Translations under genes and position numbers: made by a program
Assembly (NCBI RefSeq): GCF_000686525.1
Contig: NZ_JMKT01000012.1
Span: 124,001-188,000 of the forward strand
Source of the DNA: Desulfonatronovibrio hydrogenovorans DSM 9292
Lineage (GTDB): Bacteria; Desulfobacterota; Desulfovibrionia; Desulfovibrionales; Desulfonatronovibrionaceae
Direction: 5' to 3'
Length of the DNA stretch: 64,000 nucleotides
Shown: positions 36,924 through 42,547 of the stretch, piece by piece
How the letters are laid out: each line of letters opens with the position of its first letter
How positions within the stretch are numbered: the stretch's first letter is position 1
Notes under the pieces: model-generated
What the model saw: only the letters and a program-made list of their open reading frames with translations
What the model was told of the DNA's origin: nothing
The model's database searches: none

Positions 36924-37133
36924 CCTGCTCCCATGCGGCCGGACCATCTTTTCCTTTATTTCCTGCCCATTATTGTCCTGATGGGGATTCCCGTTATCCA
37001 GGACCACAACCACCAGAGATGCTGCTTTTTACGACCTGTCTGACTGCAGTCAGGCGGACTCCGGGCATTCTTGTGGATCAGTGAGCAGGACAAGAACCGG
37101 GAACAACGCGCAACCAGCAGCAGGGTGATCATT

Positions 37134-37949
37134 ATGGAAGAATCTATGGGCACGGTGTCGCCGGTCAGGGCCAGGGTCAGGAGTCTGGTGGAGGGACGCC
37201 GGTTTCAGAATCTGGTTATGGCTGTAATCATAATCAATGGCGTGGTGCTGGGTCTTGAAACGTCTGAAGCGGCCATGGAGCTGGCCGGGCCTGCTTTGCT
37301 GAAGATTGATTCCCTGTGCCTGAGTTTTTTCATCATTGAGATTTTGCTGAAGATATATGCCCTGCGCAGCCGTTTTTTCCGGGATGGGTGGAACATATTT
37401 GATTTCCTGGTGGTGGGCATCTCCCTGGTTCCCCATCAGGCCGGTCTTTCAGTCTTGCGTTCCCTCAGGGTGCTGCGGGTGATGCGCATGATTTCAATCC
37501 TCCCCACCATGCGCAGGGTGGTGGCAGCCATGCTGCACGCCCTGCCCGGAGTCGGTTCTGTAGCCGGGATTGTGGGAATCCTGTTTTACGTGGGTTCGGT
37601 GATCTGCACCAAGCTCTTTGGCCAGGCCCATCCGGAATGGTTCGGCTCTGTGGGGGCCTCTCTTTACACCCTGTTTCAGATCATGACCCTGGAGAGCTGG
37701 TCCATGGGCATAGTCCGTCCGGTCATGGAGACCCATCCCCAGGCCTGGCTCTTTTTTGTCCCCTTTATCCTGGTCACCACCTACACGGTCATCAACCTGG
37801 TTGTAGGTATTATTGTCAGCGCCATGGAAGAGAGATCCATTGAAGACGGCACAAAGCAGGACCCGGCTGTGGTCCTTGGCCGACTGGAAAAGCGCCTGGA
37901 CAGCCTGGATGAAAAGCTGACCATCCTGACCCGGGACCGCCGGGATTGA
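37134..37949 (+). CDS. bacterial voltage-gated sodium channel (NaChBac/NavAb family)
   Basis: About 271 residues from ATG 37134. Six membrane helices: S1 (FQNLVMAVIIINGVVLGLET), S2 (SLCLSFFIIEILLKIY), S3 (NIFDFLVVGISLV), S4 with Arg109, 112, 115 and 118 every third residue (RSLRVLRVMRMI), S5, pore helix, S6 (TYTVINLVVGIIVSAME). The selectivity filter is TLESW at residues 185-189 followed by SM, identical to NavAb, so sodium selectivity is well supported. The C-terminus ends in a coiled coil (LGRLEKRLDSLDEKLTIL) that would tetramerise the channel, as in BacNav. In alkaliphiles such channels serve pH homeostasis, chemotaxis and Na-driven motility. Start could also be ATG 37146. Confidence 0.92.
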   Translation: MEESMGTVSPVRARVRSLVEGRRFQNLVMAVIIINGVVLGLETSEAAMELAGPALLKIDSLCLSFFIIEILLKIYALRSRFFRDGWNIFDFLVVGISLVPHQAGLSVLRSLRVLRVMRMISILPTMRRVVAAMLHALPGVGSVAGIVGILFYVGSVICTKLFGQAHPEWFGSVGASLYTLFQIMTLESWSMGIVRPVMETHPQAWLFFVPFILVTTYTVINLVVGIIVSAMEERSIEDGTKQDPAVVLGRLEKRLDSLDEKLTILTRDRRD

Positions 37950-38260: not shown

Positions 38261-38932
38261 ATGAATATGATGGATGAGAAAGAGCATATCTTCAGGCTGC
38301 TGGAGCAGGTGGCTCAGGCCTTGTCAGCCATGTTTCCCAAAAATATGGAAGTGGTGGTGCACGACGTATCCCGGCCCAACAGTTCCATCCGGCATATTTC
38401 AGGCAATGTCACCGGCCGCAGCAAAGGGGGGCCGGTGACTGATCTGGTGGTCAGGTCTCTGCATGTGGAAGGAAACAAATGCAGGGATAGTCACAATTAC
38501 AGGACCACCAGCAGTGACGGCCGGGCCCTTAAGTCCAGCACGGTCTTTATCCGGGACAGGGAGGGAGAGGTTTTTGCGGTATTCTGCATCAACCTGGACC
38601 TGACCGACTATCTTAATGCCTCCAGGGCCCTGGAAATGTTTACTGCCGTGACCTCTGACTTCAATGGCCAGGGCCGGGTGGAGACCTTTTCCAGTTCCAT
38701 CTCTGAAACCATAGAATCCCTGATAGACCAGGCTGTGGCCAAGACAGGCCGGGAACCATCCACCATGTCCATGGACGAGCGGATCAGGACCGTGGCTGAA
38801 CTGGGCAACAGCGGGGTGTTCAAGATCAAGGGGGGTATTGATCTGGTGGCCCTGCGCCTGGGCGTTTCCAAGTGTACCATATATAATTATTTGAAAAAAA
38901 TAGAAACTGATCAAATGGCTGGTCGGATTTAA
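38261..38932 (+). CDS. YheO/DauR-like PAS-HTH transcriptional regulator
   Basis: A 223-residue regulator. Residues about 8-125 form the YheO-like PAS domain (MFPKNMEVVVHDVSRPNSSI, TDLVVRSLHVEG, AVFCINLDLTDY) and residues about 170-220 the helix-turn-helix (GIDLVALRLGVSKCTIYNYL). DauR of Pseudomonas, the best-known relative, represses D-amino-acid catabolism. Here it sits directly upstream of RidA, a PLP beta-lyase, an aspartate racemase and an amino/dicarboxylic acid symporter, so it probably controls that set. The ATG at 38261 and ATG 38267 or 38270 are all possible starts. Confidence 0.85.
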   Translation: MNMMDEKEHIFRLLEQVAQALSAMFPKNMEVVVHDVSRPNSSIRHISGNVTGRSKGGPVTDLVVRSLHVEGNKCRDSHNYRTTSSDGRALKSSTVFIRDREGEVFAVFCINLDLTDYLNASRALEMFTAVTSDFNGQGRVETFSSSISETIESLIDQAVAKTGREPSTMSMDERIRTVAELGNSGVFKIKGGIDLVALRLGVSKCTIYNYLKKIETDQMAGRI

Positions 38933-38961
38933 CAGTCCTGTCCGGCTGAGGAGAAAAGAAA

Positions 38962-39354
38962 ATGAAGAGTGTCAAGTCCCTGATTCCTGTGGCAACAGAT
39001 CAGGCCCCATCAGCCATAGGCCCTTATTCCCAGGGTGTGGTGGCTGGAGATCTGCTTTTTGTGTCCGGCCAGCTGCCTATTGACCCGGCAACAGGCGACC
39101 TTGTAAAGGGAGACATCGCAGCCCAGGCCGCACAATGTCTGGATAATGTCTCAGCCATTGCTGCTGAAGCTGGAACTGATCTGAACCGGGCTGTGAAATT
39201 TTCCATCTTTTTAACGGACATGGCTGACTTTGCAGCAGTCAATGAAGTTTACGCCAGTTATTTCCAGGACATATTTCCTGCCAGATCCGCATTCCAGGTC
39301 TCGGCCCTGCCCAAAAATGCAGCCATAGAAATGGAAGCTGTGCTGGCCCTTTAA
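38962..39354 (+). CDS. RidA family enamine/imine deaminase
   Basis: A 130-residue RidA (YjgF/YER057c) protein. It hydrolyses 2-aminoacrylate and other enamines, released by PLP beta-eliminating enzymes, to keto acids and ammonia. Signatures: AIGPYSQGVVAGDLLFVSGQ near residues 20-40 and the substrate-binding Arg in FPARSAFQVSALPKNA near 105-120, with the late IEMEAV Glu. It starts 29 bp after the regulator and is followed by a beta-lyase that would generate its substrate. Confidence 0.93.
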   Translation: MKSVKSLIPVATDQAPSAIGPYSQGVVAGDLLFVSGQLPIDPATGDLVKGDIAAQAAQCLDNVSAIAAEAGTDLNRAVKFSIFLTDMADFAAVNEVYASYFQDIFPARSAFQVSALPKNAAIEMEAVLAL

Positions 39355-39388
39355 TTTTTCTGCCAATAATAATTTTCTTGAGGAGGTA

Positions 39389-40408
39389 GTGATGAATTTA
39401 GCCAGGTTTCCCCGGCGCAGGTACACTGAGGGCCGGACCCCCATTGAGTTTCTGCCCAGGTTTACTTCAGCTGTCGGCGGACCGGACATCTATATCAAAA
39501 GGGACGATCTGCTGGGTCTTACAGCAGGAGGGAACAAGACCAGGAAGCTGGAGTTTCTCGTGGCCGATGCCCTGGAGCAGGGTGCGGACACCCTGATTAC
39601 CTGCGGAGCGGTCCAGTCCAACCATTGCCGTCTGACCCTGGCTGCTGCGGTCAAGGAAGGACTCAAGTGCAGGCTGGTCCTGGAAGAGAGGGTCCCAGGG
39701 AGCTACAAGCAGGATGCTTCAGGTAACAACTTTCTGTTCAACCTGTTGGGCGTGGAAAAAATTACCGTTGTTCCGGCTGGTTCGGACATGGCCGGAGAAA
39801 TGGCCAAAGTGGCTGATGAACTGGCTGCAGAAGGCAGGCAGGGCTATGTCATTCCAGGCGGAGGTTCCAATCCCATCGGCGCTACCGGTTATGTGGCCTG
39901 CGCCCAGGAGATTCAGGACCAGCTGTTTGAAAGGGCATTGGTCATAGACAGGCTTTGCGTGGCCTCGGGCTCGGCCGGTACCCATGCCGGTCTGGTTACC
40001 GGTTTTATTGGATGCAATATGAATATCCCGGTGGTGGGCATCGGGGTGAGCAGGGATCCGGAAGATCAGGACCCCCTGGTCCATGAGCTGGCGGTCAAGA
40101 CCGCTGCCAGGGTGGGGATCAGTCAGGACATTCCCGGGGAGGCAGTGGTGACCTTTGGGGATTACTGGCGGCCCAAGTATTCAGTCCCCAACAAAAAGAT
40201 GGTGGAAGCGGTGAATCTCCTGGCCAAAACAGAAGGAATCCTTTTGGACCCGGTTTATACCGGCAAGGCTGTGGCCGGGCTCATTGACCTGTGCCGCAAG
40301 GGGTACTTTAAAAAAGGGGAAAAGATCCTCTACGTGCACACCGGAGGTTCTCCAGCCCTTTATGCCTATATGGGGCCGGTGCTGGGCCGGGAGGAAGTTG
40401 CTGATTAG
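39389..40408 (+). CDS. D-cysteine desulfhydrase / L-cysteate sulfo-lyase family PLP enzyme
   Basis: A 339-residue fold-type II PLP enzyme of the ACC deaminase/D-cysteine desulfhydrase family. The Schiff-base Lys49 lies in TAGGNKTRKLEF; QSNHCRLT follows; VIPGGGSNPIGATGY and SGSAGTHAGL bind the cofactor phosphate; DPVYTGKA is near the C-terminus. It eliminates the beta-substituent of a cysteine-like amino acid, giving 2-aminoacrylate (then pyruvate and ammonia) plus sulfide (D-cysteine) or sulfite (cysteate, CuyA type). Sequence alone does not decide. GAGGAGG precedes the ATG. A strong terminator follows immediately. Confidence 0.87.
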   Translation: MMNLARFPRRRYTEGRTPIEFLPRFTSAVGGPDIYIKRDDLLGLTAGGNKTRKLEFLVADALEQGADTLITCGAVQSNHCRLTLAAAVKEGLKCRLVLEERVPGSYKQDASGNNFLFNLLGVEKITVVPAGSDMAGEMAKVADELAAEGRQGYVIPGGGSNPIGATGYVACAQEIQDQLFERALVIDRLCVASGSAGTHAGLVTGFIGCNMNIPVVGIGVSRDPEDQDPLVHELAVKTAARVGISQDIPGEAVVTFGDYWRPKYSVPNKKMVEAVNLLAKTEGILLDPVYTGKAVAGLIDLCRKGYFKKGEKILYVHTGGSPALYAYMGPVLGREEVAD

Positions 40409-40410
40409 GG

Positions 40411-40450
40411 CCGTTGCCCTGGACCAGGATCCAGGGCAACGGTTTTTTTT
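40411..40450 (+). terminator. strong Rho-independent terminator inside the gene cluster
   Basis: A 12-bp perfect stem (CCGTTGCCCTGG at 40411-40422 with CCAGGGCAACGG at 40431-40442), 8-nt loop and eight T. It lies only 2 bp after the beta-lyase stop and 24 bp before the racemase start, so racemase expression needs read-through or its own start. Confidence 0.92.
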
Positions 40451-40473
40451 GGATTTTTTGCACACAAGGACTT

Positions 40474-41172
40474 ATGATGATTGAAAAAGTGGTTGGAATC
40501 CTGGGCGGAATGGGTCCTGAGGCCACCGTGGATCTGATGAACAGGGTCATCCGGGCCACCCCGGCCAAAGATGATCTGGATCACATCCGGATGGTGGTGG
40601 ACAATAATCCCAAGGTCCCCTCCCGGATCAAGGCCCTGATTGAAGGCACCGGTCCCAGTCCTGGTCCCTGCCTGCAGGAGATGGCCCGCAAGCTCGAGCA
40701 GTGGGGAGTGGACTTTCTGGCCATGCCCTGCAATACCGCTCATTTTTACCACAGGGAAGTCCAGGAGGCAGTTTCCATCCCGGTCCTGGACATGATCAGC
40801 CTGAGTGTTGAAGCCGTGACCAGGGCTGTACCGGGAATAGACAGGTTCGGCCTTGTTGCATCCACAGCAGTGGTCAATCTGAAAATTTACGAGAATGCCT
40901 TTGCCCGGAAAGGGGTTGCCCAGGTCGTGCCTGAGGCTGAGTTTCAGAACGGACTCATGGCGGCCATCCGGACCATCAAGACCGGCAAGCACGGTTCTGA
41001 GGTTATCCAGGCCACCCAGAGGGCCGGGGAGAATCTGGAAAAAAACGGAGCCCAGGCCCTGCTCATAGCCTGCACTGAACTTTCCATCATCAGCAGGGAT
41101 ATCCGGGCCCGGATCCCGGTCTTTGACGCAGCCCAGATCCTGGCTGAAACCATAGTCAAGGAGGCCCGTTAA
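40474..41172 (+). CDS. aspartate/glutamate racemase family protein
   Basis: About 232 residues from ATG 40474, preceded by AAGGA; the longer frame would run back through the terminator. It has the two catalytic Cys of cofactor-independent racemases: Cys86 in MPCNTAHF and Cys200 in ACTELS, with GILGGMGPEATVDLM at the N-terminus typical of aspartate racemase. It interconverts D- and L-forms, probably of aspartate or a related acidic amino acid such as cysteate. Cytoplasmic. Confidence 0.9.
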   Translation: MMIEKVVGILGGMGPEATVDLMNRVIRATPAKDDLDHIRMVVDNNPKVPSRIKALIEGTGPSPGPCLQEMARKLEQWGVDFLAMPCNTAHFYHREVQEAVSIPVLDMISLSVEAVTRAVPGIDRFGLVASTAVVNLKIYENAFARKGVAQVVPEAEFQNGLMAAIRTIKTGKHGSEVIQATQRAGENLEKNGAQALLIACTELSIISRDIRARIPVFDAAQILAETIVKEAR

Positions 41173-41317
41173 CAGGACATTGAAATCCCCCGGCTGATGG
41201 GTGTACCGGGTTTTTTCAACGCCCTGCATAATAAGGGATTATCACTAATTGGGACCAGAAGACTGCTGATTCCGGCAGTCATTGCTGTTCCCGCTTAAAC
41301 AACAGGAGGTAGGGAGT

Positions 41318-42547
41318 GTGCGGTTAGCTACAAAAATTTTGATCGGTCTGGTTGCAGGTATTATTGTCGGCCTGCTCATGCAGGGCATGCAGGACTTTGC
41401 AGTCAATTACATCCGGCCCTTTGGGGACATGTTCATCCGTTTGATTATGATGATCATTGTTCCTTTGGTTCTGTCCACCCTGGTGGTGGGTGCGGCCACC
41501 ACCGGTGATGTGCGCAAGCTGGGCAGAATGGGCGGCAAGACAGTGGCTTTTTACCTGGCCACTACAGCCTTTGCCGTGTCCATAGGCATTCTTCTGGCCA
41601 ATATTTTCAGGCCGGGCCGGGGTCTGGACCTTCCGGTGGACGCCCAGTACGCAGGCCGGGAAGCACCGCCCCTTATTGATGTGATCATCAATGTTATTCC
41701 CAGAAACCCGATCCAGGCCATGTCCGACGGAGCCATGCTCCAGATAATTGTCTTTGCCCTGTTTTTGGGAGTGGCCATCTCCCTGGTGGGCAAAAAGGCC
41801 GAGCCGGTCAAGAACTTTTTTGACGGCTTTGCCGAGGTCATGTATAAGATCACCGGAATAGTGATGCAGGTCGCTCCCTACGGTGTCTTTGCCCTTATCG
41901 TGCCTGTGGTGGCCACCAATGGCCCGGCCGTACTTCTGCCCCTGGGCAAGGTCATCGGAGTCATGTATCTGGCGGTCATCATCCATGCCCTGATCGTTTA
42001 CACCCTGGTCATAAAAGGGTTTACCAAGATCACCCTGCCTGAGTTCTACAAGGGCATACTGCCGGCCCAGCTCATTGCCTTTTCCACCTGCAGCAGCGGA
42101 GCCACCCTGCCGGCAACCATCAAGTGTACCCAGGAAAACCTGGGCGTTTCCAGAGGCACGGCCAGCTTTGTCCTTCCCCTGGGCGCCACCATCAATATGG
42201 ACGGCTCAGCCATCTACCAGGGCGTTGCAGCCCTGTTCGTGGCCCAGGTCTATGCCCTGGATCTGACCCTGGGACAGCAGCTGACCGTTGTCCTGACCGG
42301 AACCCTGGCCTCCATTGGTGCGGCCGGAGTACCTGGAGCCGGTCTGATCATCCTGACCATGGTCCTGACCTCAGTAGGCCTGCCCATGGAGGGCATAGCC
42401 CTGATTGCAGGTATTGACCGGATTCTGGACATGGCCAGGACCACCCTGAACATTACCGGTGACGCTGCAGCTGCAGCATTTGTGGACTCCACCGAGCAGA
42501 AGCACGATTTAGCCGCATCAGCCAAGGCTGATGCATCTTCTGCCTGA
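41318..42547 (+). CDS. dicarboxylate/amino acid:cation symporter (DAACS family)
   Basis: About 409 residues from GTG 41318, 7 bp after AGGAGGT; a TTG further upstream is less likely. A GltP/GltPh-type transporter with eight helices and two hairpins: STCSSGATLP (HP1), NMDGSAIYQGVAALF (TM7), AAGVPGAGLIILTMVLT (HP2) and the substrate-binding TM8 DRILDMARTTLNITGD (Asp and Arg typical of acidic amino-acid carriers). It imports aspartate, glutamate, C4-dicarboxylate or a similar anion with Na+ or H+. Context with the racemase and beta-lyase suggests it supplies their substrate. Confidence 0.93.
   Translation: MRLATKILIGLVAGIIVGLLMQGMQDFAVNYIRPFGDMFIRLIMMIIVPLVLSTLVVGAATTGDVRKLGRMGGKTVAFYLATTAFAVSIGILLANIFRPGRGLDLPVDAQYAGREAPPLIDVIINVIPRNPIQAMSDGAMLQIIVFALFLGVAISLVGKKAEPVKNFFDGFAEVMYKITGIVMQVAPYGVFALIVPVVATNGPAVLLPLGKVIGVMYLAVIIHALIVYTLVIKGFTKITLPEFYKGILPAQLIAFSTCSSGATLPATIKCTQENLGVSRGTASFVLPLGATINMDGSAIYQGVAALFVAQVYALDLTLGQQLTVVLTGTLASIGAAGVPGAGLIILTMVLTSVGLPMEGIALIAGIDRILDMARTTLNITGDAAAAAFVDSTEQKHDLAASAKADASSA

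Follow-up and report, generated by a model that had tools for sequence, protein, structure and literature searches.

The window (the whole stretch of 64,000 nucleotides analyzed here) from Desulfonatronovibrio hydrogenovorans DSM 9292 encodes an intact, ordinary-looking BacNav of the canonical NavAb-like group, a kind of channel that is already known. The product of the gene is quite probably a homotetrameric voltage-gated Na+-selective channel, by which Na+ would re-enter the cell in the service of Mrp-based pH homeostasis in Desulfonatronovibrio. The tetramer, the current, the Na+ selectivity, and the physiological role are what we infer, the tetramer from the channel family and the role from that of NaVBP of Bacillus pseudofirmus. 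Desulfonatronovibrio is one of three genera, with Desulfonatronum and Desulfonatronospira, to which a review assigns the soda-lake sulfate reducers that are lithotrophic and obligately haloalkaliphilic (PMC4158274). A loose literature search, which also covered Desulfonatronospira, found no report of a sodium channel in Desulfonatronovibrio.

The channel gene is a single uninterrupted frame (Table 1), and its translation scores 141.6 bits for the Ion_trans domain of Pfam (PF00520; E = 3.1e-41), for which the cut-off is 25. Chance is no reasonable explanation for it. The frame begins with an ATG that has AGGGTG a few bases on its 5′ side; a second possible start, a TTG at 37071, would add 21 residues. 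Because the N-termini of homologues lie at or near the position of this ATG, the choice of start leaves S4 and the filter untouched. The genome, which is 98.9% complete and comprises 16 contigs totaling 2.94 Mb, encodes this single channel above the Ion_trans cut-off. The nearest named homologue, at 81% identity, is on PWNK01000087.1 from Desulfonatronovibrio sp. CSSed10_311R1.

Table 1. Position of the channel gene and of its parts in the window.
Feature	Coordinates	Strand	Description or basis
BacNav channel gene	37134..37949	+	271 aa, single 6-TM Ion_trans subunit
S1-S3, voltage sensor, residues 22-101	37197..37436	+	model helices; conserved N35, E69, W86-N87-x-F89-D90
S4 helix, residues 103-121, gating Arg 109, 112, 115, 118	37440..37496	+	alignment, model
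S5, residues 137-162	37542..37619	+	model
Selectivity filter T185-L-E-S-W-S-M-G192	37686..37709	+	alignment
S6 and cytoplasmic extension, residues 202-237, invariant N221	37737..37844	+	alignment, model
C-terminal helix, residues 244-270, heptad Leu, likely four-helix coiled coil	37863..37943	+	sequence, monomer model

The residues that mark the family are those described in the first-pass annotation. Its four arginines at every third position of S4 are exactly placed, and R109, R112, R115, and R118, together with E187, are invariant in an alignment of 25 sequences. The filter, which it had read as TLESW followed by SM as in NavAb, is exactly so (T185-L-E-S-W-S-M191-G), and TLESWSMG is invariant or nearly so among relatives, as are, or almost so, the columns of N35, E69, and W86-N87-x-F89-D90. 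The recognition of a BacNav in the genome of a sulfate reducer is thus upheld by the Ion_trans match and by these diagnostic residues, the genus being Desulfonatronovibrio. An AlphaFold model of the monomer (mean pLDDT 87.9) shows the six helices in the order of a channel, S6 being long, and a further helix at the C-terminus; it superposes on NavAb with a Z of 19.7 (2.3 Å over 223 residues) and on NavMs with a Z of about 17.9. The coiled coil predicted for the C-terminus agrees with both the heptad leucines and the helix of the monomer model: Leu occupies almost every a/d position of residues 244-270, and the C-terminal helices of the subunits likely form a four-helix coiled coil.

The epithet "NavAb-like," under which the channel was first described, is apt as the name of a group but not as a statement of nearest relative. 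NavMs of Magnetococcus marinus is the closest solved channel (E = 2e-88; 57.2% identity over 222 residues), and NavAb of Aliarcobacter butzleri is the second closest (48.9% identity over 219 residues). NavMs shares the domain plan, the TLESWSM filter, S4, and the C-terminal coiled coil, whereas the window channel falls in a separate, well-supported clade and differs in the S1-S2 loop. NavAb has an identical filter and is the best structural match, although it is 49% identical to the window channel. Membership in the Bacillus group of BacNavs is excluded, as the filter is TLESWSM rather than TLESWAS and the Halobacillus member (L082) is 42% identical; the channels of this alkaliphilic group (NaVBP and NaChBac) are nonetheless alike in proposed role, namely Na+ entry at high pH (PMC4225499). 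Membership in the AnclNav/CavMr group, defined by a filter whose fourth residue is Gly or Asp and whose seventh is acidic, is excluded by Ser188 and Met191 at these two positions, where CavMr of Meiothermus ruber (TLEGWVD) has Gly and an acid, respectively (PMC7041947).

BacNav-like matches were identified in 27 of 297 genomes of the order and, across the phylum, in 13 of 395 sampled genomes. Channels of the close clade (69-81% identical) occur within the order only in Desulfonatronovibrio (g1; 3 of 6 genomes), its sister genus (g2; 6 of 7), and g7 (6 of 8), and these 15 channels are united with a support of 100/99 in a tree built without the filter columns. Counted by clade and not by measured pH, carriers make up 15 of the 26 genomes in the two families of this clade vs. 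12 of 271 elsewhere (Fisher p = 1.3e-11, kinship ignored), and all 12 carriers outside the two families have more distant channels. The absence of the channel from three of the six genomes of the window's genus (one of them 96% complete), and from two of the eight of g7, means that it is dispensable for the lifestyle. G+C content near the channel loci is about 51-53% in g2 and 56-61% in g7; compared with the 51% and 59-63% given in PMC4158274, these values make g2 probably Desulfonatronospira and g7 probably Desulfonatronum. Elsewhere in the order, one genome (G157) has two tandem BacNav genes (L134, 669-1412 and 1481-2227, minus strand). BacNav-like genes with TLDGWT-type filters are present in G239 and G259 (L114 and L115), the G259 copy having an in-frame TAA.

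In alkaliphilic Bacillus, channels of this kind return Na+ for cation/proton antiporters, and a link to motility has also been made (PMC4225499). By the mechanism proposed here, the S4 arginines would sense the membrane voltage, leading to opening of the TLESW pore, and the open channel would let Na+ back into the cell down its steep gradient. The Na+ that re-enters would constitute the cytoplasmic supply for Mrp-type Na+/H+ antiporters, which would exchange it for protons and thereby keep the internal pH steady when that outside is high. Where flagella are present, the channel may in addition supply Na+ to the cycle that involves PomA-type stators and chemotaxis. Two Mrp-G genes are encoded in the D. 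hydrogenovorans genome. Among the 26 genomes of the two families, Mrp-G is present in all 15 carriers and falls below the cut-off in 5 of the 11 non-carriers, all of these in g3 and g4, which have neither the channel nor an above-cut-off Mrp-G. The association of channel and Mrp has p = 0.007, a value for 26 genomes that ignores kinship and reflects one or two independent events. The soda-lake genus, the Mrp genes, and the PomA-type stators together give good support to the sodium-based, alkaliphilic lifestyle at which the first-pass annotation had hinted.

The channel might instead serve mainly motility or chemotaxis, sitting with chemoreceptors and feeding or tuning a Na+ motor as proposed for NaVBP, which colocalizes with chemoreceptors (PMC4158274). 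PomA-type stators and flagellins are indeed encoded in the D. hydrogenovorans genome, but we regard this role as unlikely, in that the channel and flagellin are unassociated across the 26 genomes of the two families (11 with both, 4 with the channel only, 8 with flagellin only, 3 with neither; p = 1.0). The four flagellin-less genomes that keep the channel include some that are incomplete, as well as G012, which is 97% complete. Because the channel is retained without flagellin, and Mrp accompanies it in all carriers, a role in motility alone is less likely than one in pH homeostasis through the re-entry of Na+.

The genome encodes three MotA/MotB sets, and the stator type, which had been named as a point to check, is that of PomA: equivalents of PomA Thr158, Thr185, and Thr186 are present in two of the three MotA proteins (those of L123 and L124; GMIGT and ITT/LTT), and these three threonines are common to Na+ stators and in part missing from H+ stators (PMC10374538). 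The third, divergent MotB/MotA pair (L125, 1808-3293) lies beside iron-sulfur and oxidoreductase genes and has Ser, Ser, and Thr at the PomA Thr positions. At L123 (2524-4161), one MotA gene is followed by two different MotB genes, beside fli genes of the same genome. In the ATP synthase c-subunit (L122), examined as a possible sign of Na+ coupling, Gln and Glu-Ser match the Na+ site, but Leu takes the position at which Na+-type c-subunits have Thr.

The transporters adjoining the channel, taken to be Na+-coupled, had also been offered as evidence, and this argument is not supported: in none of the relatives examined do the SDF and CaCA genes stay next to the channel, and synteny does not link the channel to adjoining transporters. 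Of the window's neighbors, just YcjX and the gene adjacent to it recurred near the channel among 12 relatives, and this in G002, where the pair lies about 3 kb from the channel. The g7 channel adjoins MreB-like and peptidase-like genes, and the g2 channel adjoins NifU/NifS-like genes and a rubrerythrin-like gene (all named by eye from sequence). In the window, a CaCA exchanger gene and a tRNA-Ser lie upstream of the channel, with the tRNA ending 210 bp away. Downstream (38261-42547), genes for a YheO-like regulator, RidA, a PLP enzyme, an Asp/Glu racemase, and an SDF carrier stand in a row, likely as an operon for the uptake and use of D-amino acids. Recent lateral transfer beside the tRNA-Ser, with the channel as a passenger without a conserved role, would fit the closeness of that tRNA, the varying neighborhoods between genera, and the patchiness within the genus, but it is very improbable given that the 15-member clade tracks genera with high support, the third-position G+C of the channel (70.5%) is close to that of its neighbors (65-68%), the nearby YcjX gene pair stays linked to the channel in G002, and S4 and the filter are evidently constrained; tRNA-linked insertion is rejected, as no tRNA lies next to the channel at any other locus that was read.

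Four genomes of the sister genus (G006, G009, G015, and G016; L086, L090, L095, and L096) encode the filter TLEGWSED, its codons aligned to 37686-37709 of the window, while the other two g2 carriers (G012 and G017), 78-81% identical, retain TLESWSMG. In a tree built without the filter columns, the four channels group together (99/97) and their clade lies within that of TLESWSMG channels (98/96), which indicates a single change of filter. Common to them are five pore substitutions (W169M, S188G, M191E, G192D, and I193V) at positions that are otherwise nearly invariant. They resemble CavMr (TLEGWVD), a native bacterial Ca2+ channel, in that Gly occupies position 4 and an acidic residue position 7 (PMC7041947), but unlike it they belong to the NavAb-like clade of the window channel and not to the AnclNav group, CavMr itself being outside the tree. 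The authors of the CavMr study wrote that canonical BacNavs do not show Gly at position 4 together with a polar or acidic residue at position 7 (PMC7041947), and a non-exhaustive literature search found no record of a native channel that joins Gly at position 4 to a position-7 change and an extra Asp. In NavAb, S178G alone increases permeability to Li+ but not to Ca2+, and loss of Met181 increases Ca2+ permeability (PMC12919392). Because soda lakes are Ca2+-poor (PMC4158274), Ca2+ scavenging and faster Na+ entry are both conceivable for TLEGWSED. We tentatively propose that, within this soda-lake clade, the canonical Na+ filter was converted once to a CavMr-like one, which would give native Ca2+-permeable or non-selective channels of the NavAb-like group, or else channels whose additional acidic residues let Na+ in faster where the brine is poor in Ca2+. 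Isolated filters with Gly at position 4 are also present in L078, L079, and L080.

The window channel shows that a type of channel whose structure is well understood occurs in anaerobic, soda-lake sulfate reducers, among which the flagellin-less carriers allow roles in pH homeostasis and motility to be separated. The less ordinary part is the filter of the sister genus, the window channel itself being canonical. TLESWSMG and TLEGWSED channels constitute a natural pair, about 80% identical and differing at the filter, which makes it directly testable, outside the engineered CavAb, how a canonical Na+ filter might turn into one permeable to Ca2+.
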